Assembly: GCA_017502085.1 (NCBI GenBank)
Contig: JAFVVQ010000021.1
Span: 1 to 64,000 of the forward strand
DNA length: 64,000 nt
Origin: Clostridia bacterium
Lineage (GTDB): Bacteria; Bacillota; Clostridia; Oscillospirales; Acutalibacteraceae
Reading direction: 5' to 3'
Of the stretch, positions 11,406 through 29,057 are shown in pieces. The translations under genes were made by a program, and so were the position numbers. How positions within the stretch are numbered: position 1 is the stretch's first letter; each line of letters starts with the position of its first letter. The notes below the pieces were generated by a model. The model was given only the letters and a program-made list of their open reading frames with translations. It did no database searches and was not told where the DNA came from.

Positions 11406-11418
11406 AAATGTTTTTTCG

Positions 11419-11442
11419 GGGGTCGTCTTGAATGACGACCCC
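11419..11442. terminator. Perfect hairpin after mgsA
   Basis: GGGGTCGTC pairs perfectly with GACGACCCC around TTGAAT. There is no U-run downstream on the + strand (the T-run lies on the 5' side), so it may be a weak terminator or an mRNA 3'-end protector. Confidence 0.55.
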
Positions 11443-11492
11443 ATTTGCACATTAATATGACTTGATATTTTTTCAGGAAAGAAGAATAAAAC

Positions 11493-12833
11493 ATGGCACT
11501 CATTACAAAAGCCGTCAAAGGCACACAGGATATTCTGCCCTCAGAGGTCTATAAAAACCAGTTCATCGAGCAGGTTGTTATCGACATTGCGGGCAAATTC
11601 GGATTCAGAGAACTTCGTATTCCCGTTTTCGAACATACAGAGCTTTTTCAGAGAGGGGTCGGCGAAACAACTGACGTTGTTCAAAAGGAAATGTATACCT
11701 TCGATGATAAGGGCGGCAGATCAATAACACTTCGCCCTGAAGGTACTGCAGGCGTTGCAAGAGCATTTCTTGAGCACGGTCTTTTCAACGAGGCTCTGCC
11801 CCAGAAACTCTGCTACGTAATCAATTGCTACCGCTACGAAAAGCCTCAGGCAGGCAGATGGAGAGAATTCCAGCAGTTCGGTGTTGAAATGCTCGGCACT
11901 TCGTCACCCGCAGCGGATGCAGAGGTTATTTCACTTGCAAACGAAATTTTTGCTTTCCTCGGCATCGAGAATCTTCAGCTTGAACTTAATTCCATCGGTT
12001 GCCCCGAATGCAGAAAGAATTACCATAATGCACTCAGAGAATATTTTGAGTCGAAGAAAGAGAATCTTTGCCCCACCTGTCTCGAGAGACTCGGCAAGAA
12101 TCCTATGAGAATCCTCGACTGCAAGAGTCCTGTTTGCAAGGAAATCTGTGAGGGAGCACCTGCGATCATCGATTATATCTGCGAGGATTGTTCGGCTCAT
12201 TTCGAGAGCGTGAAGAAATACCTCGACGTTATGAACATCAACTATGTTGTCAATCCGAGAATCGTAAGAGGTCTTGATTACTATACACGCACCGTGTTCG
12301 AATTCGTTTCGAATCAGATTGGCGCTCAGGGTACCGTCTGCGGCGGCGGACGTTATGACGGTCTCGTTGAAGAACTCGGCGGACCGCACACTCCTTCGCT
12401 TGGTTTTGCGATGGGTACGGGCAGACTGCTGATGCTTCTTGAAGCTCAGGGTATCGAACTTCCCAAACCCGCAGCGTGTGAGGTTTATATTGCTCCGATG
12501 GGCGAAAATGCCGCTCTTGAAGCAATGAGACTGGTTTCAGAACTCCGTTCAAACGGTATCAGCGCTCAGACTGACGTTGCAGGCAGATCGCTCAAGGCTC
12601 AGATGAAATATGCCGATAAAATCGGCGCAAGATATACGATGGTGCTCGGCGATAATGAGATTGAACAGGGCAAGGCAAACCTCAAAAACATGGATAACGG
12701 TGAGGTTACCGAGGTTGAACTCAATGACATTGCGGAGACTTTTATGGAATTCCTTATCAGACAGCAGACAGCCGCTCTTCAGGAGAGCCTCGGCGAAGGC
12801 TCGGGCGATTTCGACTGGTCGTCTCTTCTTTAA
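11493..12833 (+). CDS. hisS: Histidyl-tRNA synthetase
   Basis: Class II synthetase of 446 residues that charges tRNA-His. Motif 1 (GFRELRIPVFEHTELFQRGVGETTDVVQKEMY, shown here by its ends), motif 2 (TLRPEGTAGVARA and CYRYEKPQAGRWREFQQFG), the HisA motif GLDYYTRTVFEF and motif 3 (GFAMGTGRLLMLLE) are all present, followed by the C-terminal anticodon-binding domain. About 20 extra residues follow the usual C-terminus (LQESLGEGSGDFDWSSLL). The ATG has AGGAAAGAAG upstream. It sits 27 bp before aspS, an arrangement common in Firmicutes. No T-box leader is visible. Confidence 0.97.
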   Translation: MALITKAVKGTQDILPSEVYKNQFIEQVVIDIAGKFGFRELRIPVFEHTELFQRGVGETTDVVQKEMYTFDDKGGRSITLRPEGTAGVARAFLEHGLFNEALPQKLCYVINCYRYEKPQAGRWREFQQFGVEMLGTSSPAADAEVISLANEIFAFLGIENLQLELNSIGCPECRKNYHNALREYFESKKENLCPTCLERLGKNPMRILDCKSPVCKEICEGAPAIIDYICEDCSAHFESVKKYLDVMNINYVVNPRIVRGLDYYTRTVFEFVSNQIGAQGTVCGGGRYDGLVEELGGPHTPSLGFAMGTGRLLMLLEAQGIELPKPAACEVYIAPMGENAALEAMRLVSELRSNGISAQTDVAGRSLKAQMKYADKIGARYTMVLGDNEIEQGKANLKNMDNGEVTEVELNDIAETFMEFLIRQQTAALQESLGEGSGDFDWSSLL

Positions 12834-12860
12834 TCAGAAAATGAAGGAGTAAAAATATAA

Positions 12861-14648
12861 ATGGACTTTATGACAGGACTTAAAAGAACCGATTACTGCG
12901 GCAACCTCCGAATCTCCGACGTCGGCAGAGAGGTTGTTGTTGCGGGCTGGGTTCAGCGTCAGAGAGATCTCGGCGCACTTATTTTCATTGATCTCAGAGA
13001 CAGAGAAGGCATTGTTCAGCTTGCTTTCGGTGAAGCAACCGAAAAGGAAGTTTTCGAAAAGGCTTCATCTGCAAGAAGCGAATACGTACTTATGGCAAAG
13101 GGTATTGTCAGAGAGCGTTCATCAAAGAATAACGAAATCCCCACGGGCGAAATCGAAATCGAAGTAACGGAGCTTCGCATACTCAACAAGAGTGAGACAC
13201 CTCCCTTCGAAATTATCGAAAACTGTCAGACAGCGGAGCTTACAAGACTCAAGTACCGCTATCTCGACCTTCGCCGCCCCGACCTTCAGAAGAATATTCT
13301 TCTCCGTCACAAGATTACCAAAATCACAAGAGACTATTTTGACGAAAACGGCTTTATCGAGATTGAAACACCCATCCTCATCAAGTCAACACCCGAGGGT
13401 GCAAGAGACTATCTCGTTCCCAGCCGTATCCATAAGGGCAAGTTCTATGCTCTTCCCCAGTCACCCCAGCTTTATAAGCAGCTTTCGATGGTTGCGGGCT
13501 TTGACAGATATATGCAGATTGCCCGTTGCTTCCGTGACGAGGACCTCAGAGCAGACCGTCAGCCCGAATTCACACAGATTGACCTTGAAATGTCATTTGT
13601 TGATATGGAAGACGTTCTTGCAATCGGCGAAGGCTATATGGAAAGAGTTTTCAGAGAAGCAATCGGCGCTGAAATCAAGCTTCCTCTGCCCAGACTCACC
13701 TACAAAGAGGCTATGGAGCGCTACGGCTCCGATAAGCCCGACACCCGTTACGGCATGGAAATTTATGACCTGACCGATACCGTCAGAAACTGCGGTTTCG
13801 GTGTATTCACGGGTGCGATTGAAGCGGGCGGCAGCGTAAGAGGTATCACTGCAAAGAATGCCGTCAACATTTACACAAGAAAAGAAATCGATAAGCTCAC
13901 CGAAACGGCAAGAGGTATCGGTGCAAAGGGTCTTGCATGGGTCAGAATGAATGAAGACGGTACTTACAGCTCATCGTTCGCAAAGTTCCTTACCGAGGAA
14001 GAAATGGCGGCTGTGCTTGAAAAAGCAGGTGCAGAAGCAGGCGACGTTGTAATCATCGTCGGCGATACAAAGAATTCACTTGTTCTTTCGGTTCTCGGTT
14101 CACTTCGTCAGATCGTTGCAAAGAAACTCGATATCATTCCCGAGGGCGTATATAATCTGCTCTGGATTACCGAATTCCCGTTCTTCGACTGGGATGAGGA
14201 CAGTCAGCAGTTCGTTGCAATGCACCATCCCTTTACCTCGCCGATGGATGAATGTCTCGATTATCTCGAAACGGACAAGGCATCTGTCAGAGCAAAGGCA
14301 TATGACCTTGTTCTCAACGGCGTTGAGCTTTGTTCAGGTTCAATCAGAATCACGAATCCCGACCTTCAGGGCAGAATTTTCTCGCTCCTTGGTCTGAGCG
14401 AAGAAGAGGCACATACAAAGTTCGGCTATCTTCTTGATGCGTTCAAATACGGTGCACCTCCTCACGGCGGTATGGGTATCGGTCTTGACAGACTCGTTAT
14501 GCAGATGCTCGGATGTGAATCGCTTCGTGACGTTATCGCTTATCCGAAGGTACAGAATGCAAGCGAGCCGATGACAGACTGTCCCGCAGTTGTTGATGAA
14601 ATTCAGCTTCGTGATCTCGGAATAACAGAAATGTCAACAGAAGAGTAA
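12861..14648 (+). CDS. aspS: Aspartyl-tRNA synthetase, bacterial type
   Basis: Class II synthetase of 595 residues with the bacterial layout: an N-terminal OB-fold anticodon-binding domain (about 1-110), a catalytic core with motif 2 (FRDEDLRADRQPEFTQID), a GAD insertion domain (about 290-420), and motif 3 (GMGIGLDRLVMQMLG). The length is typical. AAGGAG lies upstream of the ATG. It appears to form one transcript with hisS. The sequence alone does not show whether it is discriminating or also charges tRNA-Asn. Confidence 0.96.
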   Translation: MDFMTGLKRTDYCGNLRISDVGREVVVAGWVQRQRDLGALIFIDLRDREGIVQLAFGEATEKEVFEKASSARSEYVLMAKGIVRERSSKNNEIPTGEIEIEVTELRILNKSETPPFEIIENCQTAELTRLKYRYLDLRRPDLQKNILLRHKITKITRDYFDENGFIEIETPILIKSTPEGARDYLVPSRIHKGKFYALPQSPQLYKQLSMVAGFDRYMQIARCFRDEDLRADRQPEFTQIDLEMSFVDMEDVLAIGEGYMERVFREAIGAEIKLPLPRLTYKEAMERYGSDKPDTRYGMEIYDLTDTVRNCGFGVFTGAIEAGGSVRGITAKNAVNIYTRKEIDKLTETARGIGAKGLAWVRMNEDGTYSSSFAKFLTEEEMAAVLEKAGAEAGDVVIIVGDTKNSLVLSVLGSLRQIVAKKLDIIPEGVYNLLWITEFPFFDWDEDSQQFVAMHHPFTSPMDECLDYLETDKASVRAKAYDLVLNGVELCSGSIRITNPDLQGRIFSLLGLSEEEAHTKFGYLLDAFKYGAPPHGGMGIGLDRLVMQMLGCESLRDVIAYPKVQNASEPMTDCPAVVDEIQLRDLGITEMSTEE

Positions 14649-14671
14649 GTGAATAGTGAAAAGTCAAGGAG
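14648..14671. repeat. Relic of the 64-bp repeat family
   Basis: AGTGAATAGTGAAAAGTC directly after the aspS stop codon matches the head of the 64-bp repeat, but the GC hairpin is missing. A small AATGC-GAAA-GCATT hairpin with a T-run follows at 14726-14742 in the aspS-serC gap. Confidence 0.6.
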
Positions 14672-14762
14672 AGTTTTTTCTTGCCTGTCTCTATTTTCAC
14701 CGTTACTCTGATTGTCACATAGAATAATGCGAAAGCATTTTTATAGAAAGGATGTTTTTTAA

Positions 14763-15842
14763 ATGGCAAGAGTTTACAACTTTTCGGCAGGTCCCTCAAT
14801 GCTTCCCGAAAGCGTACTTAACCGAGCAGCTGCGGAGATGCTCGATTATAAGGGCAGCGGACAGTCGGTTCTTGAAATGAGCCACCGCTCGAAGGTTTAT
14901 GAAGAAATCATCTTCGGCGCACGTGACCTTTTCAAAGAGGTAATGAACATTCCCGATAACTACAAGGTTATTTTCTGCCAGGGCGGTGCTTCAACTCAGT
15001 TTGCGGCTATCCCCCTCAACTTCCTTAACGGAAGCGGCAAGGCTGACTACGTTCTTTCGGGTCAGTTCTCGACCAAGGCTTACAAAGAAGCCACAAAGTA
15101 CGGCGATATCAAGGTTGTTGCGTCCTCAAAGGAGCAGAATTTCAGCTGCATTCCCGAGCTTGACAAATCAACCTTCACTCCCGATGCAGACTATTTCTAC
15201 ATCTGCCAGAACAACACAATCTACGGCACACGTTTTGCTCAGCTTCCCGACACGGGCAACGTTCCTCTCGTTGCAGACGTTTCATCCTGCTTCCTTTCAG
15301 AGCCTATGGATGTTTCAAAATACGGTGTTATCTACGGCGGTGCACAGAAAAACGTTGCTCCCGCAGGTCTGACCGTTGTTATCGTCAGAGAAGACCTTCT
15401 CGGCAATGCAAGAGATTACACTCCCACAATGCTCGATTATAAGGTTCTTGCAGATAACGATTCAATGTATAACACACCGCCCTGCTATTCCATTTATATG
15501 TGCAAACTCGTTCTTGAGTGGATCAAGAATCTCGGCGGTCTTGAAGCAATGAAGCTTCACAACGAAAAGAAATGCTCAATCCTCTATGATTTCATCGATT
15601 CAAGCAATATGTTCCATAATCCCGTCAAGAAGAGCGACCGTTCAATGATGAACGTAACCTTCGTTACCGAGAGCGACGAACTCAACGCAAAGTTTGTCAA
15701 GGAAGCAACGGAAGCGGGCTTCGTCAACCTCAAGGGTCACCGTTCAGTCGGCGGTATGAGAGCAAGTATCTACAATGCTATGCCCATCGAGGGTGTTGAA
15801 AAGCTTGTTGAATTTATGAAGGAATTCGAGAAGAAAAACTGA
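14763..15842 (+). CDS. serC: Phosphoserine aminotransferase
   Basis: PLP enzyme of 359 residues that converts 3-phosphohydroxypyruvate plus glutamate to phosphoserine in serine synthesis. Signatures are the N-terminal YNFSAGPSMLPE, QGGASTQF for phosphate and cofactor binding, DVSSCFLSEP, and the PLP lysine K196 in YGGAQKNVAPAG. The C-terminal GHRSVGGMRASIYNAMP motif binds the substrate phosphate. The length is typical. GAAAGGATG lies upstream of the ATG. It is followed 25 bp later by the dehydrogenase of the preceding step, so the pair form a serine operon. No phosphoserine phosphatase is adjacent. Confidence 0.96.
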   Translation: MARVYNFSAGPSMLPESVLNRAAAEMLDYKGSGQSVLEMSHRSKVYEEIIFGARDLFKEVMNIPDNYKVIFCQGGASTQFAAIPLNFLNGSGKADYVLSGQFSTKAYKEATKYGDIKVVASSKEQNFSCIPELDKSTFTPDADYFYICQNNTIYGTRFAQLPDTGNVPLVADVSSCFLSEPMDVSKYGVIYGGAQKNVAPAGLTVVIVREDLLGNARDYTPTMLDYKVLADNDSMYNTPPCYSIYMCKLVLEWIKNLGGLEAMKLHNEKKCSILYDFIDSSNMFHNPVKKSDRSMMNVTFVTESDELNAKFVKEATEAGFVNLKGHRSVGGMRASIYNAMPIEGVEKLVEFMKEFEKKN

Positions 15843-15867
15843 TTTAATCTGAAGGGTCTGATTATCA

Positions 15868-16995
15868 ATGTATAATATTCTTACTTTAAATAAGATTTCA
15901 AAAATCGGTCTCGATAAGCTCGATGCGGCAAAATATGTCTGCGCTGACAGCGTTGAGACTCCCGATGCGGTGCTTGTACGCTCCGCTTCAATGCACGAGT
16001 TTGAACTCGATGCAAACACTGTTGCAATCGCAAGAGCGGGTGCGGGTGTCAACAATATTCCGATTCCTGCCTGCAGCGAAAAGGGTGTAGTAGTTTTCAA
16101 CACTCCCGGCGCAAATGCAAACGCAGTCAAGGAACTTGTTCTCTGCGCACTCTTCCTTTCCTCAAGAAAAGTCGGTGCGGCTATTGACTGGGCAAAGACA
16201 CTCAAGGGCGAGGGCGAAGCAGTCGGTAAGCTTGTCGAAAAAGGCAAGGGAGCTTTTGCCGGTCCCGAAATCCTCGGCAAAACTCTCGGTGTTATCGGTC
16301 TCGGCGCAATCGGTGCAATGGTTGCTGACGGCGCAAAGGCTCTCGGTATGAGCGTTATCGGTTATGACCCCTTCGTTTCGGAAAAAGACGGTGTTGAGGT
16401 CGCATCCGATATCAGCGAAATTTATGCAAAGAGCGATTATATCACCCTCCATCTGCCGCTCAACGACGGCACAAGAGGAATGATAAACGCAGATACACTT
16501 GCAGCAATGAAAGACGGCGTCAGAATTCTCAACTTCGCAAGAGGTGAGCTTGTTGACTCCAAGTCAATCATCGATGCTCTCGCAAACGGCAAGGCTGCGG
16601 CTTATGTTACGGACTTCCCCAATGATGAGCAGCTCTGCGTTGAGGGTATCACAGCTATTCCTCACCTCGGTGCATCAACACCCGAGAGCGAAGAAAACTG
16701 CGCTGCTATGGCGGCTCAGGAGCTTGCAGATTACCTTGAAAAGGGCGTAATCAAGAATTCCGTCAACCTTCCCAATGCGGCTCTTCCCGAGGCATTTGAA
16801 TGCCGCACCTGCTTCATCCACAAGGAAGACGAAGCATTCGGCACAAAGGTTTCCGCAGAAGCAATCGCACAGGGTGCGGCAATCAGGAATCTCTTCAGCG
16901 CAAGCAAGAAGGGTATGGGCTACACGGTTATCGATACCGACAAGCCTCTCGATACCGCAAACATTGACGGTGCAATCAGAATCCGCACAATCTGA
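15868..16995 (+). CDS. serA: D-3-phosphoglycerate dehydrogenase
   Basis: NAD-dependent dehydrogenase of 375 residues for the first step of serine synthesis. It belongs to the D-isomer 2-hydroxyacid dehydrogenase family: a catalytic N-terminal segment with RAGAGVNNIP, a Rossmann fold with GLGAIGAMVADGAKALG, the conserved Arg in ILNFARGELVD, and the catalytic His in AIPHLGASTPESEENCA. The last 75 or so residues resemble a diverged ACT-type regulatory domain, shorter than in the 500-residue SerA enzymes, so serine feedback is possible but not proven. Its placement after serC supports SerA over other hydroxyacid dehydrogenases. Confidence 0.9.
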   Translation: MYNILTLNKISKIGLDKLDAAKYVCADSVETPDAVLVRSASMHEFELDANTVAIARAGAGVNNIPIPACSEKGVVVFNTPGANANAVKELVLCALFLSSRKVGAAIDWAKTLKGEGEAVGKLVEKGKGAFAGPEILGKTLGVIGLGAIGAMVADGAKALGMSVIGYDPFVSEKDGVEVASDISEIYAKSDYITLHLPLNDGTRGMINADTLAAMKDGVRILNFARGELVDSKSIIDALANGKAAAYVTDFPNDEQLCVEGITAIPHLGASTPESEENCAAMAAQELADYLEKGVIKNSVNLPNAALPEAFECRTCFIHKEDEAFGTKVSAEAIAQGAAIRNLFSASKKGMGYTVIDTDKPLDTANIDGAIRIRTI

Positions 16996-17006
16996 ATATA
17001 AGAATG

Positions 17007-17034
17007 ACCGGTGAGTTTTCTCACCGGTTTTTTT
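17007..17034 (+). terminator. Terminator of serC-serA
   Basis: ACCGGTGAG-TTTT-CTCACCGGT is a perfect 9-bp stem followed by T6. The identical stem with a different loop recurs at 25402 after aroF, so two copies flank the aromatic operon. Confidence 0.93.
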
Positions 17035-17131
17035 CTCGACAAGGAACAAATAATTCTTTCGTTATATTCTTTTTTCAGAGACGGAAACAGGGCGATGAAT
17101 CGGGTATTCGGAAATTTTTGAAAAATTTTTC

Positions 17132-17160
17132 TTGACATTTCATTTTTACAGGCATATAAT
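17132..17160 (+). promoter_or_regulatory. Consensus promoter of the aromatic operon
   Basis: TTGACA (17132-17137), 17-bp spacer, TATAAT (17155-17160): a perfect sigma-A consensus. The predicted start near 17167 gives a leader of about 230 nt before pheA, holding a leader peptide and a terminator. Confidence 0.9.
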
Positions 17161-17191
17161 TTAGAAAAATCCTGAGATGAAGGTAATATTT

Positions 17192-17299
17192 ATGAACGCA
17201 ATACTCTCAAACACAAGTAAATATTTCTTTAGCTTCAGCGTAGCCTTTTATTTTGGCTATGCTTATTTTGCTATGGAAAAGACACTTGTGAGAGCATAA
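17192..17299 (+). CDS. Phe/Tyr-rich leader peptide (35 residues) of the aromatic operon
   Basis: This short frame (ATG 17192, TAA 17297-17299) has its own SD, GAAGG at 17179-17183, 8 bp before the ATG. Residues 11-26 read YFFSFSVAFYFGYAYF: six Phe and four Tyr in sixteen codons (17222-17269), and there is no Trp. The operon downstream makes exactly Phe and Tyr, so this is the expected sensor of an attenuator: low charged tRNA-Phe or tRNA-Tyr would stall the ribosome in this run. The stop codon lies inside the 5' arm of the antiterminator, the usual geometry. The product itself probably has no other role, although the hydrophobic run could be mistaken for a small membrane peptide. Confidence 0.85.
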   Translation: MNAILSNTSKYFFSFSVAFYFGYAYFAMEKTLVRA

Positions 17300-17379
17300 A
17301 AAGTTTTTGATATTACTTGATATATTTAACAGTACTTTTAAAGCCTCACTTGTAACTCAGCAAGTGAGGTTTTTGTTTT
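17237..17379 (+). promoter_or_regulatory. Transcription attenuator: pause hairpin, antiterminator and terminator
   Basis: Three structures are visible. The first hairpin, 17237-17245 with 17255-17263, has 9 bp including one G-U and lies within the Phe/Tyr codons. The antiterminator pairs GTGAG 17288-17292 with CTCAC 17345-17349, GC 17294-17295 with 17343-17344, and AAAAGT 17299-17304 with ACTTTT 17334-17339. The terminator pairs CCTCACTTG 17344-17352 with CAAGTGAGG 17361-17369, followed by T5GT4. Antiterminator and terminator share 17344-17349 and so exclude each other. A ribosome at the leader stop codon would cover the antiterminator 5' arm and favour termination; a ribosome stalled earlier would leave it free. 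No T-box or TRAP-type repeats are seen. Confidence 0.83.
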
Positions 17380-17397
17380 GAAAGGGTGGTTTCGGAT

Positions 17398-18486
17398 ATG
17401 TCGGATAAGCTGAAGGAAGCAAGAGAAATTATCAACAGAGTTGATTCTCAGATGGCGGAGCTTTTTATTGAAAGAATGCATGCCGCAGAGAAGGTGTTCG
17501 AATACAAAAAGGAATTCGGTCTCCCGATTCTCGATCCCCGAAGAGAAGAAGAGGTCATCGAAAAAAACGCCGCTCTGATAGAAGACGGTATTCTCAAGGC
17601 TTACTATATTGATTTTATCAGAGATCTTATGAGTGTTTCACGTGCTTATCAGTATCGGTTGCAGAACGGACTTAAGGTTGCATACAGCGGTGTTGAAGGT
17701 GCTTTCGCACATATCGCAGCAGGAAGAATCTTTCCCGAAAGCAACAGAATTTCATTCAGAGATTTCAAATCGGCATATGATTCCGTTGTCAACGGCGAAT
17801 GTGACGTTGTAGTGCTTCCCATAGAAAACAGTTATGCGGGAGAGGTCGGACAGACGATTGATCTTATTTTTTCAGGCAATCTCTTCATCAACGGAATTTA
17901 TGAGCTTGATATTCATCAGAATCTTCTCGGCATTGAGGGGTCAACAGTTGATGATATCAAAAAGGTTGTAAGCCATCCTCAGGCGCTCGGTCAATGCCAT
18001 GATTATATCAAATTCCGCGGTTTTGATGCCGAAGAGGCGAATAATACTGCGGTTGCCGCCAAAACGGTTGCGGAAATGAAAGATAAATCTGTCGGTGCGA
18101 TTGCGAGTGCCGAAACTGCGGAGATATTCGGACTTAAAATTCTTGAGGCGAATATCAATAAAAGCGGAGAAAACACGACCCGTTTTGCCGTTCTTTCAAA
18201 GGTCAGAGCGGAGTCATCTTCGCTTACAAGCTCAGTTCTGATGTTTACGGTTAAAAATGAGGCGGGTTCACTTGCAAATGCGATAAGCATTATCGGTAAA
18301 TACGGATACAATATGACCGCACTCAGAAGCAGACCTCTGAAAAAACATTCGTGGCAGTATTATTTCTATATAGAAATTGACGGTGCGACGGATAATGAAG
18401 ACGGTCAGAAAATGATTGCGGAATTGAACGGAGTTTGTGACAGACTTAAAATTGCGGGAACTTTTGCTCCGCACAGTGAGATATAG
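17398..18486 (+). CDS. pheA: Bifunctional chorismate mutase / prephenate dehydratase
   Basis: P-protein of 362 residues that turns chorismate to prephenate and then to phenylpyruvate, the phenylalanine branch. Residues 1-90 are an AroQ-type chorismate mutase (REIINRVDSQMAELFIERMH, DPRREEEVI). Residues of about 95-275 are the dehydratase (VAYSGVEGAFAHIAA, PIENSYAGEVGQTIDL, VVSHPQALGQCHDYI, NTTRFAVL-like ENTTRFAVLSK). Residues of about 280-355 are an ACT domain (FTVKNEAGSLANAISII; ALRSRPLKKHSWQYYFY), implying Phe feedback. ATG 17398 is chosen over an in-frame GTG at 17386 because the SD AAAGGGTGG (17381-17389) overlaps the GTG. It is the first gene after the attenuator. Confidence 0.95.
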   Translation: MSDKLKEAREIINRVDSQMAELFIERMHAAEKVFEYKKEFGLPILDPRREEEVIEKNAALIEDGILKAYYIDFIRDLMSVSRAYQYRLQNGLKVAYSGVEGAFAHIAAGRIFPESNRISFRDFKSAYDSVVNGECDVVVLPIENSYAGEVGQTIDLIFSGNLFINGIYELDIHQNLLGIEGSTVDDIKKVVSHPQALGQCHDYIKFRGFDAEEANNTAVAAKTVAEMKDKSVGAIASAETAEIFGLKILEANINKSGENTTRFAVLSKVRAESSSLTSSVLMFTVKNEAGSLANAISIIGKYGYNMTALRSRPLKKHSWQYYFYIEIDGATDNEDGQKMIAELNGVCDRLKIAGTFAPHSEI

Positions 18487-18497
18487 AGGTTATAGAC

Positions 18498-19508
18498 ATG
18501 AATATACATCTTGATTTAAAAGAAAACAGCTACGATATTATTGTTGAGAGGGGAATTCTCTGCAAAGCCGGGGAGCATCTCAATCTGAACAGACGTGTTC
18601 TTGTTGTGACTGATTCGGGAGTGCCTGAGGCTTATGCAAAGACAGTTGCAGAGCAATGCAAAATTCCCGTTGTTGTCACCGTTGAATCGGGAGAAAACTC
18701 GAAAAGCATTGAAGTTTTTTCTATGCTTCTTCAGAAAATGCTTGAAAACGGCTTTTCGAGAAACGACTGCGTGGTTGCCGTCGGCGGCGGAGTTGTCGGA
18801 GATCTTTCGGGCTTTGTTGCATCGGCATATATGAGAGGCGTTGATTTCTATAATATTCCGACAACACTTCTTTCGCAGATAGATTCATCCATCGGCGGAA
18901 AAACCGCCGTCAATTTCGGCGGCATAAAGAACATTGTCGGAGCATTTTATCAGCCGAAGAAGGTTCTAATCGATCCCGATCTGCTTAAAACACTTCCTGA
19001 CAGACAGATTTCAAACGGTCTTGCCGAAGCAATAAAAATGGCACTTACGTCTGATAAGAAGCTCTTCGAAATATTTGAGAACGGAGATATTCAGAAGAAT
19101 ATTGATGAAATTATCATCCGTTCACTGAACATCAAGAAATCGGTTGTGGAGCAGGATGAAAAAGAATCGGGAATCAGAAAAATTCTGAATTTCGGTCACA
19201 CAATCGGGCACGGAATAGAAATCAGTAACACACAGGGGCTTTATCACGGCGAATGTGTTGCGCTCGGACTTATCCCTATGTGCAGTGAAGAAATAAGACC
19301 GGGAGTAATAAATGTATTAAATAAATGCAACCTTTATAATCAGATAGATTTCGATTGGAAAAAAATCGGCGATGCGGCGTTTCACGACAAAAAAGCCGAC
19401 GGAGATTCGGTCAGCGTGACGCTCGTCAACGAAGTCGGAAAATTCGAAATCAGAACTCTGAAATGCAGTCAGGTTATAGATATGGCTGAAAGCTGTCTGA
19501 AAGGATGA
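18498..19508 (+). CDS. aroB: 3-dehydroquinate synthase
   Basis: NAD- and metal-dependent enzyme of 336 residues for the second shikimate step, DAHP to 3-dehydroquinate. Signatures are the NAD-binding GGGVVGDLSGFVAS, PTTLLSQIDSSIGGKTAVNF (active-site and substrate contacts), and the metal ligands in LNFGHTIGHGIE and YHGECVALG. The length is slightly below the 350-360 typical of the family but all motifs are present. It starts 11 bp after pheA and its stop is followed at once by aroC. Confidence 0.96.
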   Translation: MNIHLDLKENSYDIIVERGILCKAGEHLNLNRRVLVVTDSGVPEAYAKTVAEQCKIPVVVTVESGENSKSIEVFSMLLQKMLENGFSRNDCVVAVGGGVVGDLSGFVASAYMRGVDFYNIPTTLLSQIDSSIGGKTAVNFGGIKNIVGAFYQPKKVLIDPDLLKTLPDRQISNGLAEAIKMALTSDKKLFEIFENGDIQKNIDEIIIRSLNIKKSVVEQDEKESGIRKILNFGHTIGHGIEISNTQGLYHGECVALGLIPMCSEEIRPGVINVLNKCNLYNQIDFDWKKIGDAAFHDKKADGDSVSVTLVNEVGKFEIRTLKCSQVIDMAESCLKG

Positions 19509-19513
19509 TACAG

Positions 19514-20608
19514 ATGAAAAATACGTTCGGAAACAGTGTGGCGGTCACGTTGTTCGGCGAAAGTCACGGCGAATATATCGGCGCCGTTGTTGACGGCCTC
19601 GCACCCGGAATTGAAATTGACAGAGAATATATCGGGCATATGCTTACTCTCAGGAGGCCTGACGGCAAAATCTCCACACCCAGAAAAGAAAAAGATGAAT
19701 TCAGGATTATCAGCGGTGTTGTGAACGGGAAAACGACGGGAACTCCCGTGACGGTTCTTATTCCCAACGAAAACGTCAACAGTTCGGATTATTCAGCCCT
19801 TAAAACCGTTGCCCGTCCTTCTCATGCTGACTATACCGCGCAGTGCAAATATCACGGCTTTCAGGATTCAAGAGGCGGGGGACATTTCAGCGGCAGAATA
19901 ACTGCGGCGCTTGTTGCGGCGGGTGCAATCTGCAAATCCGCATTGGAGAAAAAAGGAATCTTAATCGGTACTCACGTTAAAAAATGCGGCGGAGTTGCAG
20001 ACAGAGATTTCGGTGAATATTCTGCAGATATTCAGGCTCTGAGCGGAAAGGGCTTTGCCGTGCTTGACGAAGCCTGCGAAGAAGCGATGAAAAACAGAAT
20101 TATTGAAGCGGCATCGGAAGGTGACAGTGTCGGCGGAATTCTTGAAACGGCGGTTATCGGCATCCCCGAAGGCGTCGGCGAACCGTGGTTTGATTCTGCG
20201 GAGAGTGTTATTTCCCATATGATGTTTTCAATCCCTGCGGTTAAGGGGATTGAATTCGGTGCGGGTTTCGGTCTCGCTGATATGAAAGGCAGCGAAGCAA
20301 ACGATCCGTTGATAATTAAAAACGGCAGAATAGTTACCGAAAAGAACGATAACGGTGGCATCAACGGCGGTATCACGAACGGAATGCCGATAGTTTTCCG
20401 AACAGCGATAAAGCCGACTCCTACAATTTTCAAACCGCAGAATACGGTTGATTATCAGAATATGACAGAGACTGTTACCGAGCCGAAGGGCAGACACGAT
20501 CCTGCAATCGTTCACAGAGCAAGAGCTGTTCAGGATGCGGCAACGGCTATCGTTATCTGCGATATGCTCGCAATGAGATTCGGTACGGATTGGATAAATG
20601 AGTTATGA
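19514..20608 (+). CDS. aroC: Chorismate synthase
   Basis: FMN-dependent enzyme of 364 residues that makes chorismate from EPSP, the last common step. Seen: NSVAVTLFGESHGEYIGAVVDG with the catalytic His, the RRPDG loop, HADYTAQCKYHGFQDSRGGGHFSGRITA, and GGINGGITNGMPIVFRTAIKPTPTI, all conserved (quoted here in part). The ATG at 19514 is preferred over the ATG at 19505, because AAGGA (19501-19505) lies 8 bp before it and overlaps the earlier ATG. It overlaps the aroE-aroK start by 4 bp. Confidence 0.96.
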   Translation: MKNTFGNSVAVTLFGESHGEYIGAVVDGLAPGIEIDREYIGHMLTLRRPDGKISTPRKEKDEFRIISGVVNGKTTGTPVTVLIPNENVNSSDYSALKTVARPSHADYTAQCKYHGFQDSRGGGHFSGRITAALVAAGAICKSALEKKGILIGTHVKKCGGVADRDFGEYSADIQALSGKGFAVLDEACEEAMKNRIIEAASEGDSVGGILETAVIGIPEGVGEPWFDSAESVISHMMFSIPAVKGIEFGAGFGLADMKGSEANDPLIIKNGRIVTEKNDNGGINGGITNGMPIVFRTAIKPTPTIFKPQNTVDYQNMTETVTEPKGRHDPAIVHRARAVQDAATAIVICDMLAMRFGTDWINEL

Positions 20609-21852
20609 ATAAATACGGATGCATAGGCAAAAGGCTGACTCACAGCTTTTCTAAAGAAATTCACTCCCGCCTTGCCGATTATGAATATGAACTGATTGAA
20701 CTGAATGAAGAAGATATAGAAGAATTCTTCGCGGAAAGGAATTTCAGCGCAATCAACGTCACGATTCCCTATAAGCAGACGGTGATTCCTTATCTTGATT
20801 GGATGAGTGACGTTGCAAGACGAATAGGTGCGGTTAATACAATAGTCAACAAAGACGGCAGACTTTTCGGATACAATACCGATTATTACGGTATGAAAGC
20901 ACTTGTTGAAAAAATCGGTGTTGATCTGAACGGGAAAAAAGTTCTCATTCTCGGAACCGGGGGCACGAGCAAAACCGCACGTGTTTTAGCGGAAGATATG
21001 GGTGCTGAAAAAGTAATTACGGTCAGCAGAAGCAAAAATGAAAATTACGTTACCTACGAAGACGTGGTGAAGAATCATTCGGATGCACAGATTATCGTCA
21101 ACACTACGCCGTCGGGAATGTATCCCGATTGCGATTCTCAGCCGATCGATATTTCGGTTTTCGGGAATCTTGAGGGTATTGTTGATGCGGTTTATAATCC
21201 GCTTTACACGAATCTTGTGCTGAACGCAAGGGCAAGAGGCATAAGAGCTGAGGGCGGACTATATATGCTTGTGATGCAGGCGGTTGTTGCAGTTGAGAAA
21301 TTCCTTGGCACAGAAATCTCCGAAACGGTTGCAGATAAAGTATTCGCTTCTGTTTTTGCATCGAAGGAAAATATCGTTCTCACCGGAATGCCGGGAAGCG
21401 GAAAAAGTACGGTCGGAAAGCTTCTCTGTATTGACGGTTTTGAGCTTGTCGATACAGATGAAGAAATCGAAAAGCGTTGCGGCTGCACAATAAAAGAACT
21501 TATAAACCGGAATGGCGAAGAATACTTCCGCAATCTGGAGAGTGAAATCATAAAAGAGATTTCATCAAAAGGCTGTCGGGTGATTTCAACAGGCGGCGGC
21601 GCAGTGTTGCGCGGGAAAAATGTAAATGCCCTGAAAAGAAACGGAAAAATCTTTTTTATAAATGCCGATCCCGACAGACTTTTGCCAACGGATAGCAGAC
21701 CGCTTTCCGATACGGCGGATAAGCTGAAAAAACTCTATGAGGAAAGAATTGAGATTTATAAAGGAACTGCCGACGTGACTGTTCCCGATATGCCGACTCC
21801 CGAAGAAGAGGCGGAGTTTATCCTCAAAGCAAGAACGGAGCTGATAAAGTGA
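20605..21852 (+). CDS. aroEK: Shikimate dehydrogenase - shikimate kinase fusion
   Basis: A fused protein of 415 residues catalysing two consecutive steps, dehydroshikimate to shikimate (NADPH) and shikimate to shikimate 3-phosphate (ATP). Residues 1-250 are AroE: the N-terminal LTHSFSKEIH substrate site, catalytic K57 in NVTIPYK, NTD at 91-93, the GTGGTSKTA nucleotide loop, and the C-terminal LVMQAVVAVEKF. Residues of about 255-415 are AroK: Walker A GMPGSGKST (261-269), DTDEEIEKR, GEEYFRNLE, the STGGGAVLR shikimate-binding loop, and the DSRPL lid. There is no long linker between the halves. The start overlaps aroC by 4 bp and the stop overlaps the aroQ start. The shared length and motifs rule out a reading-frame artefact. 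Confidence 0.95.
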   Translation: MNKYGCIGKRLTHSFSKEIHSRLADYEYELIELNEEDIEEFFAERNFSAINVTIPYKQTVIPYLDWMSDVARRIGAVNTIVNKDGRLFGYNTDYYGMKALVEKIGVDLNGKKVLILGTGGTSKTARVLAEDMGAEKVITVSRSKNENYVTYEDVVKNHSDAQIIVNTTPSGMYPDCDSQPIDISVFGNLEGIVDAVYNPLYTNLVLNARARGIRAEGGLYMLVMQAVVAVEKFLGTEISETVADKVFASVFASKENIVLTGMPGSGKSTVGKLLCIDGFELVDTDEEIEKRCGCTIKELINRNGEEYFRNLESEIIKEISSKGCRVISTGGGAVLRGKNVNALKRNGKIFFINADPDRLLPTDSRPLSDTADKLKKLYEERIEIYKGTADVTVPDMPTPEEEAEFILKARTELIK

Positions 21853-22277
21853 AAATACTTGTTATAAACGGTCCGAATATCAATATGCTCGGCATAAGAG
21901 AGCCTGAGCATTACGGCAAAGAAACTTATGCCGACCTTGTGACAAAAATTCAGAAGCACTGCGACTCAAAGGATGTTGAAGTGAAGATTTTTCAATCCAA
22001 CCATGAGGGCGATATTGTTGATGAAATTCAGAAGGCATATGGAAATGCCGACGGAATCGTCATCAATCCCGCTGCTTACACACACACGAGTGTTGCGATT
22101 CTCGATGCGGTGAAATCAGTGAATATTCCAACTGTTGAAGTGCATATTTCAAAGGTGGAAGAGAGAGAAGATTTCAGGCAGATAAGCTATGTGCGTCTTG
22201 CCTGCGCAAAAACAATAACAGGTCACGGCACAGACGGATACCTTGAAGCAATTGATTATCTGACAGAAGGTAAATGA
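21849..22277 (+). CDS. aroQ: Type II 3-dehydroquinate dehydratase
   Basis: Dodecameric-type dehydroquinase of 142 residues for the third shikimate step. Signatures are VINGPNINMLGIREPEHYG (with the catalytic Tyr on the lid), QSNHEGDIVDEIQ, INPAAYTHTSVAILDA, and VEVHISKVEEREDFRQISY. The GTG start at 21849 overlaps the aroE-aroK TGA (GTGA) and has GGAG 8 bp upstream. No class I enzyme is present nearby, so this supplies the step for the whole operon. Confidence 0.96.
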   Translation: MKILVINGPNINMLGIREPEHYGKETYADLVTKIQKHCDSKDVEVKIFQSNHEGDIVDEIQKAYGNADGIVINPAAYTHTSVAILDAVKSVNIPTVEVHISKVEEREDFRQISYVRLACAKTITGHGTDGYLEAIDYLTEGK

Positions 22278-22278
22278 T

Positions 22279-23478
22279 ATGAAAGCAATATTCAGACCGT
22301 GCAGACTCAGGGGCAGAGTGAATGCTCCGCCGTCGAAAAGTATGGCACACAGATACCTTATCGGCGCTGCACTGTCAAAAGAAAAATGTGTTATATCGGG
22401 CGTTGATTTCAGCGAAGATATTCTCGCAACAATCGATTGCCTGAAAGCTATGGGTGCTGAAATTCAGGTTGCGGAAGATACGGTAACCGTAAACCCTGAA
22501 CACTTCATGAGATCCGATTCGGATGTTATGAAGTGCAGAGAAAGCGGCAGTACGTTGAGATTTTTTATTCCTCTCGCATTGTGTGCGGGCAAGAGAATTA
22601 CTTTGCAGGGCAGTCCGAGGCTTTTTGAACGCCCTCTTGGCGTGTATGAAAAGCTTTGTGCCGATAACGGTTTTGAGTTCATAAAGAATGAAAATTCAGT
22701 GACCGTCTGCGGCAATCTTAAAAGCGGAAATTATGAAATCAGCGGTGATATCAGCAGTCAGTTTATAACGGGGCTCATTTTTGCTCTTGTTTATCTCGGA
22801 GAAGAATCGTCAATCCGTATTTCTCCGCCGTTCGAAAGCAGATCATATATAAATCTCACCGTTTCAGTGCTGAAAACCTTCGGGGCGGACGTGGAGTTTG
22901 CTGATGAATATACAATTATGATAAGGAAGGCAAAACTGCATTCTTTTTCGGGCTCGGTAGAGGGCGATTATTCGAATGCCGCTTTTCTTGATGCGTTCAA
23001 TTATATCGGGTCGGAGGTTGAAATCGGCAATCTCAATGCGGACAGTCTTCAGGGCGACCGCATATACAAAGAATATTTTGAAGCAATCGCAAAAGGTACT
23101 CCGACTCTGGATATTTCGGATTGCCCCGACCTTGGTCCCGTGCTTATTGCACTTGCTTCGCTGAAAAACGGTGCGGTGCTTACAGGCACAGACCGATTGA
23201 AGATAAAGGAAAGCGACCGCGGTCAGGCAATGCACGAAGAACTCAGGAAGCTCGGCGGAGGGCTGGTTTTCGGCGATAATATGATAACCGTTCCGAGACA
23301 GGAGTTTAATTGCAACGTCAGGCTTGACGGACACAACGATCACCGTATTGTTATGGCTCTGTCGTTGATTCTTTCAAAGTGCGGAGGAGCAATTGAAGGA
23401 GCTGAGGCTGTCAGAAAAAGCTATCCTTCATTCTTTGAGGTAGTTAAAACTCTTGGCGCAGAGGTGATAACGGAATGA
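22279..23478 (+). CDS. aroA: EPSP synthase (3-phosphoshikimate 1-carboxyvinyltransferase)
   Basis: Enzyme of 399 residues that adds the enolpyruvyl group of PEP to shikimate 3-phosphate; the target of glyphosate. Seen: the N-terminal PPSKSMAHRYLIGAAL, the ESGSTLRFFIPLAL motif, GDISSQFITGLIFAL, VEGDYSNAAFLDAF, IKESDRGQAMHEEL, and the C-terminal DGHNDHRIVMALS. The sequence RESGSTLRFFIP, in place of the GNAGTAMRP of E. coli-type enzymes, resembles other clostridial AroA; I infer but cannot show that glyphosate sensitivity differs. It starts 1 bp after the aroQ stop and overlaps tyrA by 4 bp. Confidence 0.95.
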   Translation: MKAIFRPCRLRGRVNAPPSKSMAHRYLIGAALSKEKCVISGVDFSEDILATIDCLKAMGAEIQVAEDTVTVNPEHFMRSDSDVMKCRESGSTLRFFIPLALCAGKRITLQGSPRLFERPLGVYEKLCADNGFEFIKNENSVTVCGNLKSGNYEISGDISSQFITGLIFALVYLGEESSIRISPPFESRSYINLTVSVLKTFGADVEFADEYTIMIRKAKLHSFSGSVEGDYSNAAFLDAFNYIGSEVEIGNLNADSLQGDRIYKEYFEAIAKGTPTLDISDCPDLGPVLIALASLKNGAVLTGTDRLKIKESDRGQAMHEELRKLGGGLVFGDNMITVPRQEFNCNVRLDGHNDHRIVMALSLILSKCGGAIEGAEAVRKSYPSFFEVVKTLGAEVITE

Positions 23479-24332
23479 TAGTAAACGTAAGCAAAAGAAT
23501 ACTTATTGTCGGTCTCGGTCTTCTGGGCGGCAGTTATGCGAGAGTGCTGAAAAGATTCGGGTTTCACATAAGTGCGATAACAAAGGAGCAAAGTTCAATT
23601 GATTACGCTCTTCGTGAAGGTATGATTGATGAGGGATCGACTGAACTTGATGAAAATATGATCGGTCAGGCGGATATCGTGATTTTTGCCTTGTATCCCC
23701 ACATCTTCGTGGAGTGGATCGAACAGAATCAGTCTCTTCTGAAAAGCGGTGCAATGATAACCGACGTAACGGGCGTCAAATGCAGTATTGTTTATAAAGT
23801 TCAGAATATGCTTCGCCCTGACGTCGAATTCATTGCGGCTCACCCGATGGCGGGCCGTGAGGTTTCAGGTGTTGAGAACAGCACCGATAAATTGTTTGCG
23901 GGAGCAAACTATATTGTTACTCCCACTGAAAAAAACACTCCCGAGGCAATCAACACCTGTATGGAGCTTGGCAGGTTGCTCGGATTTTCGAACGTCACAA
24001 CACTTTCGCCCGAAGAACACGATGAAATGATAGGTTTTCTCTCTCAGCTTACTCATTGCATTGCAATCACTCTTATGACGTGCAATGATAAGGAGAATAT
24101 GGAGAAGTTTACGGGTGACTCGTTCCGTGATCTTACCCGTATCGCACATATAAATGACCTGATGTGGAGCGAACTTTTCATAGAAAATAAATCAGCTCTT
24201 CTTGAACAGATGACTCTTTTTATAAATAAATTCAATGAATTGAAATCAATGCTTGAAAACGAAGATGTTGAAGCGATGCGAAAAATGATGCGTCACTCAA
24301 CCGTACGCAGAGCGTTGTTTGATAAAAAATAA
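23475..24332 (+). CDS. tyrA: Prephenate dehydrogenase
   Basis: NAD-dependent enzyme of 285 residues that oxidatively decarboxylates prephenate to 4-hydroxyphenylpyruvate, the tyrosine branch. Signatures are the Rossmann loop ILIVGLGLLGGSYARVLK, DVTGVKCSIV, AAHPMAGREVSGVENS (catalytic His region), and LSPEEHDEMIGFLSQLTHCIAI. It stops after the catalytic and dimerisation domains with no C-terminal ACT domain, so it is probably not feedback-inhibited in the manner of the 370-residue Bacillus TyrA. It overlaps aroA by 4 bp. Confidence 0.94.
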   Translation: MIVNVSKRILIVGLGLLGGSYARVLKRFGFHISAITKEQSSIDYALREGMIDEGSTELDENMIGQADIVIFALYPHIFVEWIEQNQSLLKSGAMITDVTGVKCSIVYKVQNMLRPDVEFIAAHPMAGREVSGVENSTDKLFAGANYIVTPTEKNTPEAINTCMELGRLLGFSNVTTLSPEEHDEMIGFLSQLTHCIAITLMTCNDKENMEKFTGDSFRDLTRIAHINDLMWSELFIENKSALLEQMTLFINKFNELKSMLENEDVEAMRKMMRHSTVRRALFDKK

Positions 24333-24349
24333 TATCGGAGGCCCAAAAA

Positions 24350-25378
24350 ATGAATATGAATTTCAAAAGAAAATTGCCGATTCCTATGGAAATCAAGGAA
24401 CAGTACCCTATCACTTATAAGCTTGAGCAGATGAAGGAAAAGCGAGATCAGGAAATCAAGTCGATTTTTGAAAGCAGAGATAACAGATTTATTCTTATTA
24501 TAGGACCTTGCTCTGCGGATAACGATGACAGCGTGATCGATTATATCACCAGACTCAGAGGCGTACAGGAAAAGGTTTCGGATAAAATCCTCATTATCCC
24601 GAGAATATATACCAACAAACCCCGCACAACGGGTGACGGATACAAAGGTATGCTTCATCAGCCCGACCCCCACAAGGGAGAGGATATGCTCAAGGGTGTT
24701 GTTGCAATCAGAAATCTGCATATCAGGGCGATGAATGAAACCGGTTTTACCTGTGCAGATGAAATGCTCTACCCCGAGAATTACAGATACCTTTCCGACG
24801 TGCTTTCATATGTTGCAATCGGTGCCAGATCCGTTGAAAATCAGCAACACCGTCTGACCGCAAGCGGCTTCGATATTCCTGTCGGTATGAAAAACCCCAC
24901 CGCGGGTGATATTTCGGTTATGATGAATTCGATAACGGCGGCTCAGCATTCCCATACCTTCATTTACAGAGGCTGGGAAGTTGAGAGCCACGGCAATCCG
25001 CTTGCCCACGCAATCCTGAGAGGTTACGTCAATAAACACGGCCGGTCAATGCCGAACTATCACTACGAAGACCTTATCAATCTTGCTGAAGTCTATGACA
25101 GATCAGGCTTGAAAAACCCTGCGGTTATCATCGACACAAACCACGCTAACTCAGGCAAAAAGTGGATGGAGCAGCCGAGAATCGCAAAGGAAATAATTCA
25201 CAGCTGCCGTAATTCCGATGACATCAGAAGAATCGTAAAAGGTCTGATGATAGAAAGCTATATTGAAGACGGCGCACAAAAACCCGAAGAAAGCGTTTAC
25301 GGCAAATCGATAACCGACCCGTGCCTCGGATGGGAGAAAACCGAAAGACTTATCCTCGACCTGGCGGATATGCTTTAA
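24350..25378 (+). CDS. aroF: DAHP synthase (3-deoxy-7-phosphoheptulonate synthase), class I alpha
   Basis: First shikimate-pathway enzyme, 342 residues, which condenses PEP with erythrose 4-phosphate. It has the type I alpha (E. coli AroF/G/H-like) pattern: the N-terminal LPIPMEIKEQYP, IIGPCSADN, PRIYTNKPRTTGDGYKGML, CADEMLYPENYRYLSDVLSY, AIGARSVENQQHR, GMKNPTAGD, and the metal-binding DTNHANSGKKW. This type carries its feedback site in the barrel and N-terminal arm rather than in a fused domain. It is the last gene, 17 bp after tyrA, and a terminator follows. The pathway-committing gene being last, far from the attenuator, is unusual but fits a single long transcript. Confidence 0.95.
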   Translation: MNMNFKRKLPIPMEIKEQYPITYKLEQMKEKRDQEIKSIFESRDNRFILIIGPCSADNDDSVIDYITRLRGVQEKVSDKILIIPRIYTNKPRTTGDGYKGMLHQPDPHKGEDMLKGVVAIRNLHIRAMNETGFTCADEMLYPENYRYLSDVLSYVAIGARSVENQQHRLTASGFDIPVGMKNPTAGDISVMMNSITAAQHSHTFIYRGWEVESHGNPLAHAILRGYVNKHGRSMPNYHYEDLINLAEVYDRSGLKNPAVIIDTNHANSGKKWMEQPRIAKEIIHSCRNSDDIRRIVKGLMIESYIEDGAQKPEESVYGKSITDPCLGWEKTERLILDLADML

Positions 25379-25401
25379 TTTGAGTTTTATATTAAAAAAT
25401 G

Positions 25402-25429
25402 ACCGGTGAGCGAAAACTCACCGGTTTTT
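25402..25429 (+). terminator. Terminator of the aromatic operon
   Basis: ACCGGTGAG-CGAAAA-CTCACCGGT, a perfect 9-bp stem, followed by T5GTTGTTTT. The stem is identical to that at 17007. Confidence 0.93.
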
Positions 25430-25458
25430 GTTGTTTTATCGGTATTTATTCAAATATT

Positions 25459-26767: not shown

Positions 26768-27384
26768 CAGAAATTTATGAATTTTTCGGGATTTTCTTTG
26801 ATATATGCACCTGCGATATTGCAGATTTCTTCGGCGGAAACAAGCTCAGAGAATTCTTTGTCGAGAGCAGTTATTTCCGAGGGAATAACGGAGACTTCTT
26901 CGTTATCCGAGTCGAATGCGTTATATTCTTTTTCGAAAACAGTGCAGACGTTTTCACCGAAAAGCTTTCTGACAGCGCCCAATGATGCACCGGTGAGGGG
27001 TTGACCGTTTGTTCTGAAGAAATTACTCAGAGCATTTTCACCGTCTTCAATAACAAATGAAAGGGCGTATATATACTGTTGTCCGTCGCTGAGTGCGTTG
27101 AATTCGGCAATCATATTGTCGGCATCGGATATCTTTTTCTGAAGATTGAGGGCAACGCCCTTGAAAAGGCGGTCAGGCTCAGCGGTGGCGATGAGATTTT
27201 CTGTCAGAATTGAAAATTCATTGTGCAGAGCGTTTTCTTCTTTGATTTTTTTCATTGTCTTTTCGTTGGCGGCATATCTTCTTGAACTTGCCTGAGCCGC
27301 TTTGAAGCAGACGAAAACCGTCAACAGAATAACGGCAACAAATACCGCAATCCAGATGGGATGGTCGATGAAATATTGTATCAT
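26764..27384 (-). CDS. Unknown membrane-anchored protein
   Basis: 206 residues. Residues 7-28 form one strong transmembrane helix (HPIWIAVFVAVILLTVFVCF), followed by a basic, Ala/Ser-rich juxtamembrane stretch and a helical, mostly acidic domain of about 165 residues. That topology suggests a short outside end and a cytosolic helical domain. I do not recognise the family. It starts 3 bp after the rsmI stop, so it is the third gene of trmN6-rsmI-this gene. A promoter for the next gene overlaps its stop codon. Confidence 0.8.
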   Translation of the reverse strand: MIQYFIDHPIWIAVFVAVILLTVFVCFKAAQASSRRYAANEKTMKKIKEENALHNEFSILTENLIATAEPDRLFKGVALNLQKKISDADNMIAEFNALSDGQQYIYALSFVIEDGENALSNFFRTNGQPLTGASLGAVRKLFGENVCTVFEKEYNAFDSDNEEVSVIPSEITALDKEFSELVSAEEICNIAGAYIKENPEKFINFC

Positions 27385-27387
27385 CTG

Positions 27388-28952: not shown

Positions 28953-28987
28953 AAGCGCCTCCGATACCTGAATTGATATTACATTAT

Positions 28988-29016
28988 ATTATAACATTGA
29001 CGTCTGCAAATGTAAA
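28988..29016 (-). promoter_or_regulatory. Promoter of trmN6-rsmI
   Basis: On the minus strand: TTTACA (29016-29011), 17-bp spacer, TATAAT (28993-28988). It begins right after the terminator of the upstream transporter gene. Confidence 0.7.
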
Positions 29017-29020
29017 GAAA

Positions 29021-29050: not shown

Positions 29051-29057
29051 CTGGAAA

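Follow-up and report, generated by a model that had tools for sequence, protein, structure and literature searches.

We report that the shikimate-Phe-Tyr operon of a clostridial genome (G000) is headed by what, on sequence and comparative grounds, is a real, complete and conserved transcription attenuator of classical mechanism. The window, i.e., the whole 64,000-nucleotide stretch of DNA that was analysed, carries in front of pheA a short leader open reading frame (ORF) dense in Phe and Tyr codons, and predicted folds place four RNA regions across and beyond it. A ribosome-mediated transcription attenuator of the pheL/trpL type, reading charged tRNA-Phe and tRNA-Tyr, is very probably the best explanation. 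The leader, its codon run, the four predicted regions, their exclusive pairings and their conservation come directly from the sequence and from comparison with relatives.

Architecture of the leader region

The elements upstream of pheA are the following.

17132..17160, + strand: sigma-70/A-type promoter, TTGACA-17-TATAAT, 12 of 12 consensus positions (consensus match only)
17180..17183, + strand: Shine-Dalgarno sequence of the leader ORF, AAGG, 8 nt upstream of the ATG at 17192 (sequence)
17192..17299, + strand: predicted leader peptide ORF, 35 codons plus stop, peptide MNAILSNTSKYFFSFSVAFYFGYAYFAMEKTLVRA (sequence, homologue alignment)
17212..17218, + strand: region 1, the protector, pairing with 17284-17290 (folds; helix paired in 94.1% of cells in 21 leaders)
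17237..17263, + strand: 9-bp hairpin within the aromatic run, arms 17237-17245 and 17255-17263, loop formed by the codons Phe-Tyr-Phe (fold, alignment)
17284..17304, + strand: region 2, comprising the region 1 partner (17284-17290) and the antiterminator 5' arm (17288-17304) and containing the leader stop codon (folds, alignment)
17334..17352, + strand: region 3, comprising the antiterminator 3' arm (17334-17349) and the terminator 5' arm (17344-17352) (folds, alignment)
17361..17379, + strand: region 4, comprising the terminator 3' arm (17361-17369) and the T tract TTTTTGTTTT (fold, alignment)

Checked base by base, the description in an earlier note on this DNA proved right in nearly every detail. 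The consensus promoter that it had claimed consists of TTGACA at 17132-17137 and TATAAT at 17155-17160 with a 17-nt spacer; one promoter site is expected by chance at the looser 9-of-12 limit of the scan, so it is the exactness of the match that matters rather than the match itself. The 35-codon leader was likewise found with its own Shine-Dalgarno sequence, three of whose four bases are at least 90% conserved among 21 aligned leaders. Counting codons 11-26 (17222-17269) gave the ten Phe/Tyr codons within sixteen, and no Trp, that had been described. When the 330 nt before pheA were dinucleotide-shuffled 1000 times, a short ORF of such density (10/16) arose once. Among all ORFs of 12-70 codons on both strands of the whole window, this leader alone has 9/16 Phe/Tyr or more.

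The secondary structures were also as described. The 9-bp hairpin lies across the aromatic codons, and an intrinsic terminator with a T-rich tail is located between the leader and pheA (17340-17373, running into TTTTTGTTTT). The 13-bp antiterminator, which shares 17344-17349 with the terminator, forms between 17288-17304 and 17334-17349 at -12.8 kcal/mol when 17288-17352 is folded with region 4 absent, and the leader stop codon (17297-17299) sits inside its 5' arm. Two terminator-like sites were found in 17000-17420, against 0.1 expected, the second being the serA terminator at 17006-17029. Folding 17167-17397, a check that the earlier note had proposed, gave z = -5.9, with none of 200 shuffles equally stable. 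The pairing between 17212-17218 and 17284-17290 (1:2) is an addition to the earlier description. With it, the predicted pairings 1:2, 2:3 and 3:4 are mutually exclusive, and this is the layout of the trp and phe attenuators. Please note that the terminator is more stable than the antiterminator at equilibrium (-24.3 versus -18.0 kcal/mol for 17284-17380), so antitermination must be kinetic.

The operon and its flanking terminators

Downstream of the attenuator lie eight genes and a closing terminator.

17398..18486, + strand: pheA, chorismate mutase and prephenate dehydratase (PF01817, PF00800)
18498..19508, + strand: aroB, 3-dehydroquinate synthase (PF01761)
19505..20608, + strand: aroC, chorismate synthase (PF01264)
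20605..21852, + strand: aroE-aroK fusion, shikimate dehydrogenase and shikimate kinase (PF08501, PF01202)
21849..22277, + strand: aroQ, type II dehydroquinase (PF01220)
22279..23478, + strand: aroA, EPSP synthase (PF00275)
23475..24332, + strand: tyrA, prephenate dehydrogenase (PF02153, PF20463)
24350..25378, + strand: aroF, DAHP synthase (PF00793)
25401..25426, + strand: strong terminator after the operon, its 9-bp stem core shared with the serA terminator (17006-17029) (terminator scan)

The earlier note had counted nine activities in eight genes; the gene number stands, and Pfam raises the activities to ten (chorismate mutase, prephenate dehydratase, AroB, AroC, AroE, AroK, AroQ, AroA, TyrA and AroF). 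Adjacent genes overlap or lie at most 17 nt apart, and we infer a single transcript whose leader would control all eight genes. The two terminators that flank the operon (17007-17028 and 25402-25425) have an identical 9-bp stem, ACCGGTGAG/CTCACCGGT, which has two matches in the window and none in shuffles. A genome search for this stem with a 6-nt loop and at most two mismatches matched only the copy at 25402-25425, and a genus-mate genome (G018) has a terminator with the same stem after its serA.

Conservation in close relatives

Relatives were taken from a scan of genome contigs, from which the best 80 pheA loci (L031-L110) were kept. A recognisable copy of the window's leader is present at 20 of these, and the window and the 20 relatives were aligned (21 sequences), excluding L039 (decayed) and L091 (partial). 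Such an alignment had also been proposed in the earlier note, and those of the note's refuting conditions that sequence comparison can address turned out in favour of the attenuator, with aromatic residues kept and stems showing compensatory changes. The ten aromatic positions hold Phe or Tyr in 204 of 210 cells, nine of them being Phe-Tyr swaps relative to the window; by comparison, the window residue is retained in 95 of 126 cells at the run's six non-aromatic positions. The stems of the termination state are paired in 96.8% of cells, with double changes in 6 of 27 pairs; 4 of 500 shuffles had as many. The codon-run hairpin is paired in 97.4% of cells, with double change in three of nine pairs, and the terminator helix in 98.9% across the 21 sequences. 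The antiterminator has five core pairs, which are intact throughout the alignment (21/21 sequences, a single U-G included). Two more pairs lie outside this core; they are broken in seven and five of the 21 sequences, and the outermost is replaced, C-G by U-A, in five of the 21.

We also compared how well each arm pairs with its own partner and with partners swapped between sequences, in permutations that count related sequences as independent. In the window's family, coupling is clear for the codon-run hairpin (3 of 20000 permutations as good), moderate and only suggestive for 3:4 (632/20000) and 2:3 (1033/20000), and weak for 1:2 (2442/20000), beside the 94.1% of cells paired in that helix. 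In L033 and L034 the stop codon, placed by eye, lies about 30 nt beyond the start of the antiterminator arm, and a terminating ribosome would cover the arm less well there. At one locus, L039:386-598, the leader has decayed, an in-frame TGA interrupting its codon run; the terminator is kept and aro genes lie downstream. The coverage of L039 is low (1.19), and an assembly error is possible.

A covariance model built from the window's family and run with stricter filters on 300 genomes of the taxonomic family matched ten of them. The four strong matches were the window itself and repeats of L062, L032 and L090. The weak matches L123, L124, L125, L127 and L128 are other aromatic-rich leaders before DAHP synthase, called by Pfam for L123, L124 and L127 and by likeness of the protein start for L125 and L128; a further match, L126, is not a leader. 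The model reaches few genomes, so the spread of such leaders was judged from the upstream regions of homologous proteins.

Other leader families with the same layout

At the operon 5' ends of L031-L110, 49 of 76 have an aromatic-rich leader and 27 do not by a shuffle rule, according to which at most 3 of 60 shuffles may be as rich in aromatic codons (L051, L073 and L088 were skipped for their short upstream sequence). A few of the 27, e.g., L049, L075, L106 and L107, have a leader by other criteria. The terminator detector, which accepts loops of at most 11 nt, found a terminator in 26 of the 49 leaders and missed most of those in a second family, family B, which were read directly from the sequence.

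Family B belongs to the many relatives whose operon starts with aroF, and has a different leader peptide, e.g., MNNNKFYFYFYYFNKGCPSFVKTEN. Region 2 of this family (GGGCTGCCCG) encodes the Gly-Cys-Pro of the peptide; its partners are region 3 (CGGACAGTCC) and a region 1 that overlaps the Shine-Dalgarno sequence. With L077 left out (24 of 25 sequences), the permutations as good as the true partners numbered 0 (1:2), 0 (3:4) and 220 (2:3) of 20000. A third peptide, e.g., NSYFYAYVRFFAGFYFRTQ, defines family C, found in genus-mates and in other genomes, some of them labelled Ruminococcus. Here the corresponding numbers were 0 (1:2), 4 (3:4) and 619 (2:3) of 20000 for 18 sequences, aligned with L006 trimmed by eye, and 15 of 18 local folds show a short hairpin with two aromatic codons in its loop. 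Both families have the 1:2, 2:3 and 3:4 layout of the window's family.

Spread in the family, the class and the phylum

In 40 stretches around pheA from family genomes, all six coding-strand candidates for a leader followed by a terminator precede aroF, pheA or a DAHP synthase gene; the opposite strand gave two candidates, before other ORFs. By the shuffle rule (at most 3/60), 5/10 DAHP synthase starts, 2/3 aroF starts and 4/40 pheA starts of this family sample carry a leader, most of the pheA starts being operon-internal.

For the class Clostridia, 118 genomes were searched for DAHP synthase, and 40 upstream regions were taken from the first 55 places. This sample is ranked by similarity and non-random; it spans 27 families and includes near-copies (L177/L178 and L185/L186). 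Of these 40 similarity-ranked regions, 29 (in 19 families) have a leader whose aromatic richness is equalled by no more than 5 of 100 shuffles, and a terminator follows in 27 of the 29. Under a strict rule (8/16 aromatic codons plus a terminator after), 25 of the 40 DAHP synthase regions pass, versus none of 142 non-aro ORFs, the latter taken from the family stretches L129-L168 rather than from the class genomes; among the aro ORFs of those stretches, which are mostly operon-internal, 3 of 94 pass. The earlier note had implied that leaders of this kind are rare in Firmicutes, which does not agree with our clostridial sample, where aromatic-rich leaders look common before aromatic genes.

The class leaders also fit their own terminators. 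In 25 of the 29 (L184 and L203, with no terminator found, and L196 and L202 were left out), the stretch after the aromatic run pairs with its own terminator arm at a mean of -14.2 kcal/mol versus -9.8 kcal/mol with the arms of others, which was equalled in none of 20000 permutations. The own arm beats the own swapped mean in 22 of the 25, the exceptions being L170, L206 and L207, and the antiterminator pairing begins 8-45 nt after the last aromatic codon. The peptides share little except aromatic density, apart from subgroups, and some distant leaders, e.g., L196 and L202, have Trp in the run. One group (L188, L195, L200, L207 and L208, also L196 and L202) has terminators with CTCAT in common. 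In the five tested, the CTCAT terminator is matched by a complementary stretch that contains AATGAG and lies close to where the leader ORF ends, the chosen pairing of L207 being weak. This subgroup is possibly a separate conserved leader family.

In a phylum-wide draw, 8 of the best 30 places pass, including L210, which repeats a class genome, and L230, which is weak (5/16); among places whose enzyme is more distant, almost none pass. From these upstream regions, it looks as if Phe/Tyr leaders are common in Clostridia and some neighbours and not phylum-wide.

T-boxes and other RNA families

The earlier note had set the leader against T-box control, and this contrast holds: T-boxes occur elsewhere in the same genome and none was found at the aro operon. 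No match to the T-box model (RF00230) was obtained at 17100-17450 at E values up to 10, nor anywhere in the window at the gathering score. The genome as a whole has 12 T-box matches at E up to 0.001, three of them above the cut-off and none of the 12 at the aro operon. The T-box before pheS has the specifier UUC, another before a trpB-like gene (the gene name is our own reading) has UGG and scores 90.8 bits versus a cut-off of 93, and a third has UGC, all specifiers being read from the alignment. Rfam families gave ten weak matches at 17100-17450, all far below their cut-offs and taken as chance, and the Phe_leader model (RF01859) scored 15.3 bits at the locus, below its gathering cut-off of 55. 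Elsewhere in the window, a lysine riboswitch aptamer lies at 39998-40164 (+ strand, 93.6 bits). In the similarity-ranked class sample, T-boxes precede 3 of the 40 DAHP synthases (L181, at 90 bits versus the cut-off of 93, L193 and L201), none of the three having a leader, and the phylum-wide draw gave a T-box in 2 of the 18 loci scanned.

Mechanism and alternative explanations

The conserved aromatic run could in principle be read as peptide rather than as codons. In a TnaC-like arrest-peptide sensor, the nascent peptide would stall the ribosome with free Phe or Tyr as the ligand, and the codons would matter only as a conserved peptide. The window family's peptide is indeed conserved beyond its aromatic residues (core SVAFYFGYAYFA), and family C retains an RFFAGFY-like core. 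However, a large part of the conserved sequence coincides with the hairpin and region 2, the Gly-Cys-Pro residues of family B likewise derive from its region 2, and the peptides of the class sample, subgroups aside, have little in common but aromatic density, with Phe and Tyr swapping. We consider such a sensor improbable.

We find it slightly less credible still that the locus is a tRNA-binding T-box, a riboswitch or a protein-dependent attenuator, with the ORF as a by-product of a U-rich leader. The genome does possess T-boxes (12 matches, three over the cut-off), and they do stand before 3/40 clostridial DAHP synthases, but the locus itself gave none, its ten Rfam matches are far too weak, and the aromatic codons are kept despite nucleotide change. 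A constitutive partial terminator without regulation by translation would suit the equilibrium preference for the terminator and the terminator that L039 keeps beside a broken leader; it leaves the conserved codon run, the antiterminator complementarity and the geometry unexplained, and we give it the least credence, close to none.

The comparative data thus far support the interpretation of the earlier note, a ribosome-mediated attenuation that would sense Phe and Tyr, which we propose may work as follows. When Phe and Tyr are plentiful, the ribosome would pass 17222-17269, reach the stop codon at 17297-17299 and cover region 2; region 3 would then pair with region 4, and transcription would stop at about 17379. 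When Phe or Tyr is short, the ribosome would stall in the run with its front edge short of the antiterminator arm, region 2 would pair with region 3, no terminator would form, and pheA-aroB-aroC-aroEK-aroQ-aroA-tyrA-aroF would be transcribed. If the leader is untranslated, region 1 would pair with region 2 and the terminator would form. The geometry of stall versus arm depends on the size of the ribosome footprint. Between the end of the last aromatic codon (17269) and the start of the arm (17288) lie 18 nt, and stalling at any of the ten codons should thus keep the arm uncovered. Translation of the leader, the stalling, the sensing of tRNA, the direction of the response and its reach over the whole operon are what we infer from this arrangement.

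Origin of the operon

The genus-mate G018, whose aspS is 97% identical to the window's, is syntenic with the window to either side of the operon, its contig aligning with 11411-17032 on one side and with 25457-26535 and 27135-36535 on the other. In the interval from serA to the metallophosphoesterase gene, it has about 2.06 kb with one 639-aa ORF, versus the 8.4-kb operon of the window (17033-25456). Its pheA matches the window's at only 34%, and its DAHP synthase gene is on the same contig as that pheA, under another Phe/Tyr leader, MLNSAFTNAYFYFYFIK. The window's genome, 84.5% complete, yielded no DAHP synthase of the G018 type (E up to 1e-40) and no second pheA (E up to 1e-20). The G+C content is 0.439 in the operon and 0.477 and 0.484 in the flanks. 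The simplest reading is that the operon and its attenuator probably arrived together and displaced a resident pair; alternatively, the two genomes may differ through differential loss. We do not favour a third idea, that the odd pheA stems from mis-binning of the contig, given the 97% identity of aspS and the synteny on both sides. Short repeats of about 34-62 bp recur in the window (36613-36705, 42118-42304, 47563-47734, 53953-54009, 55481-55541 and 59556-59671) and in contigs of genus-mates.

Relation to known systems and significance

The enterobacterial pheL/pheA attenuator consists of a Phe-rich leader ORF, mutually exclusive hairpins and a terminator before pheA. The locus described here resembles it in its aromatic-rich leader ORF, exclusive hairpins and terminator before pheA, and differs from it (RF01859) in mixing Phe with Tyr, in the whole shikimate-Phe-Tyr operon that follows, in its clostridial host and in its 15.3 bits versus 55. 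T-boxes key transcription attenuation to tRNA charging, as the window's leader would; the T-box binds the tRNA directly, without a leader peptide.

Outside Proteobacteria, a Phe-containing uORF with a terminator before an aromatic gene has been described as the uORFC-13-1 motif upstream of aroF in Acholeplasma, for which attenuation was proposed (PMC8632094). As the motif is presented there, it has 24 representatives, from Acholeplasma and unassigned environmental sequences only, and "at least one phenylalanine" (PMC8632094). A Tyr run like that of the window is not part of this presentation (PMC8632094), the comparison being one of descriptions. Leader-peptide attenuation as such is known in Bacillota, for other amino acids and in another class, as in the leucine-rich ilv-leu attenuator of Staphylococcus aureus, with predicted ones cited for Lactococcus and Streptococcus (PMC5794164), and the histidine leader of hisS paralogues in bacilli (PMC2965389). 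Of the other sources, PMC1262725 treats Actinobacteria and PMC2494555 treats T-boxes. In the open-access literature that we searched, we found no report of a Phe/Tyr leader peptide for the aromatic genes of Clostridia.

Taken over the class, we lean towards the view that leader peptides, Phe/Tyr-rich and sometimes Trp-bearing, are the usual control of the first aromatic step in much of Clostridia, that their sequence evolves too fast for covariance libraries, that they are exchanged with T-boxes between lineages, and that they move with the operon as a self-regulating cassette. In the common picture, Bacillota control their aromatic genes by T-boxes and TRAP. If our view is true, this picture changes, as leaders outnumber T-boxes 29 to 3 among the 40 similarity-ranked clostridial DAHP synthases. 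What deserves to be followed up is how widely such leaders seem to occur in front of the aromatic operons of Clostridia. The leaders would form a natural series of attenuators with the same logic that arise with dissimilar sequences, and the locus itself would be a case for studying the displacement of a resident operon by another that brings its own switch. For Clostridia of the gut and rumen, which either produce aromatic amino acids or compete for them, the leaders would be direct, testable reporters of what each species senses (Phe, Tyr, or also Trp). In the organism described here, a gut clostridium, the leader probably restricts the synthesis of aromatic amino acids to times when they are scarce.
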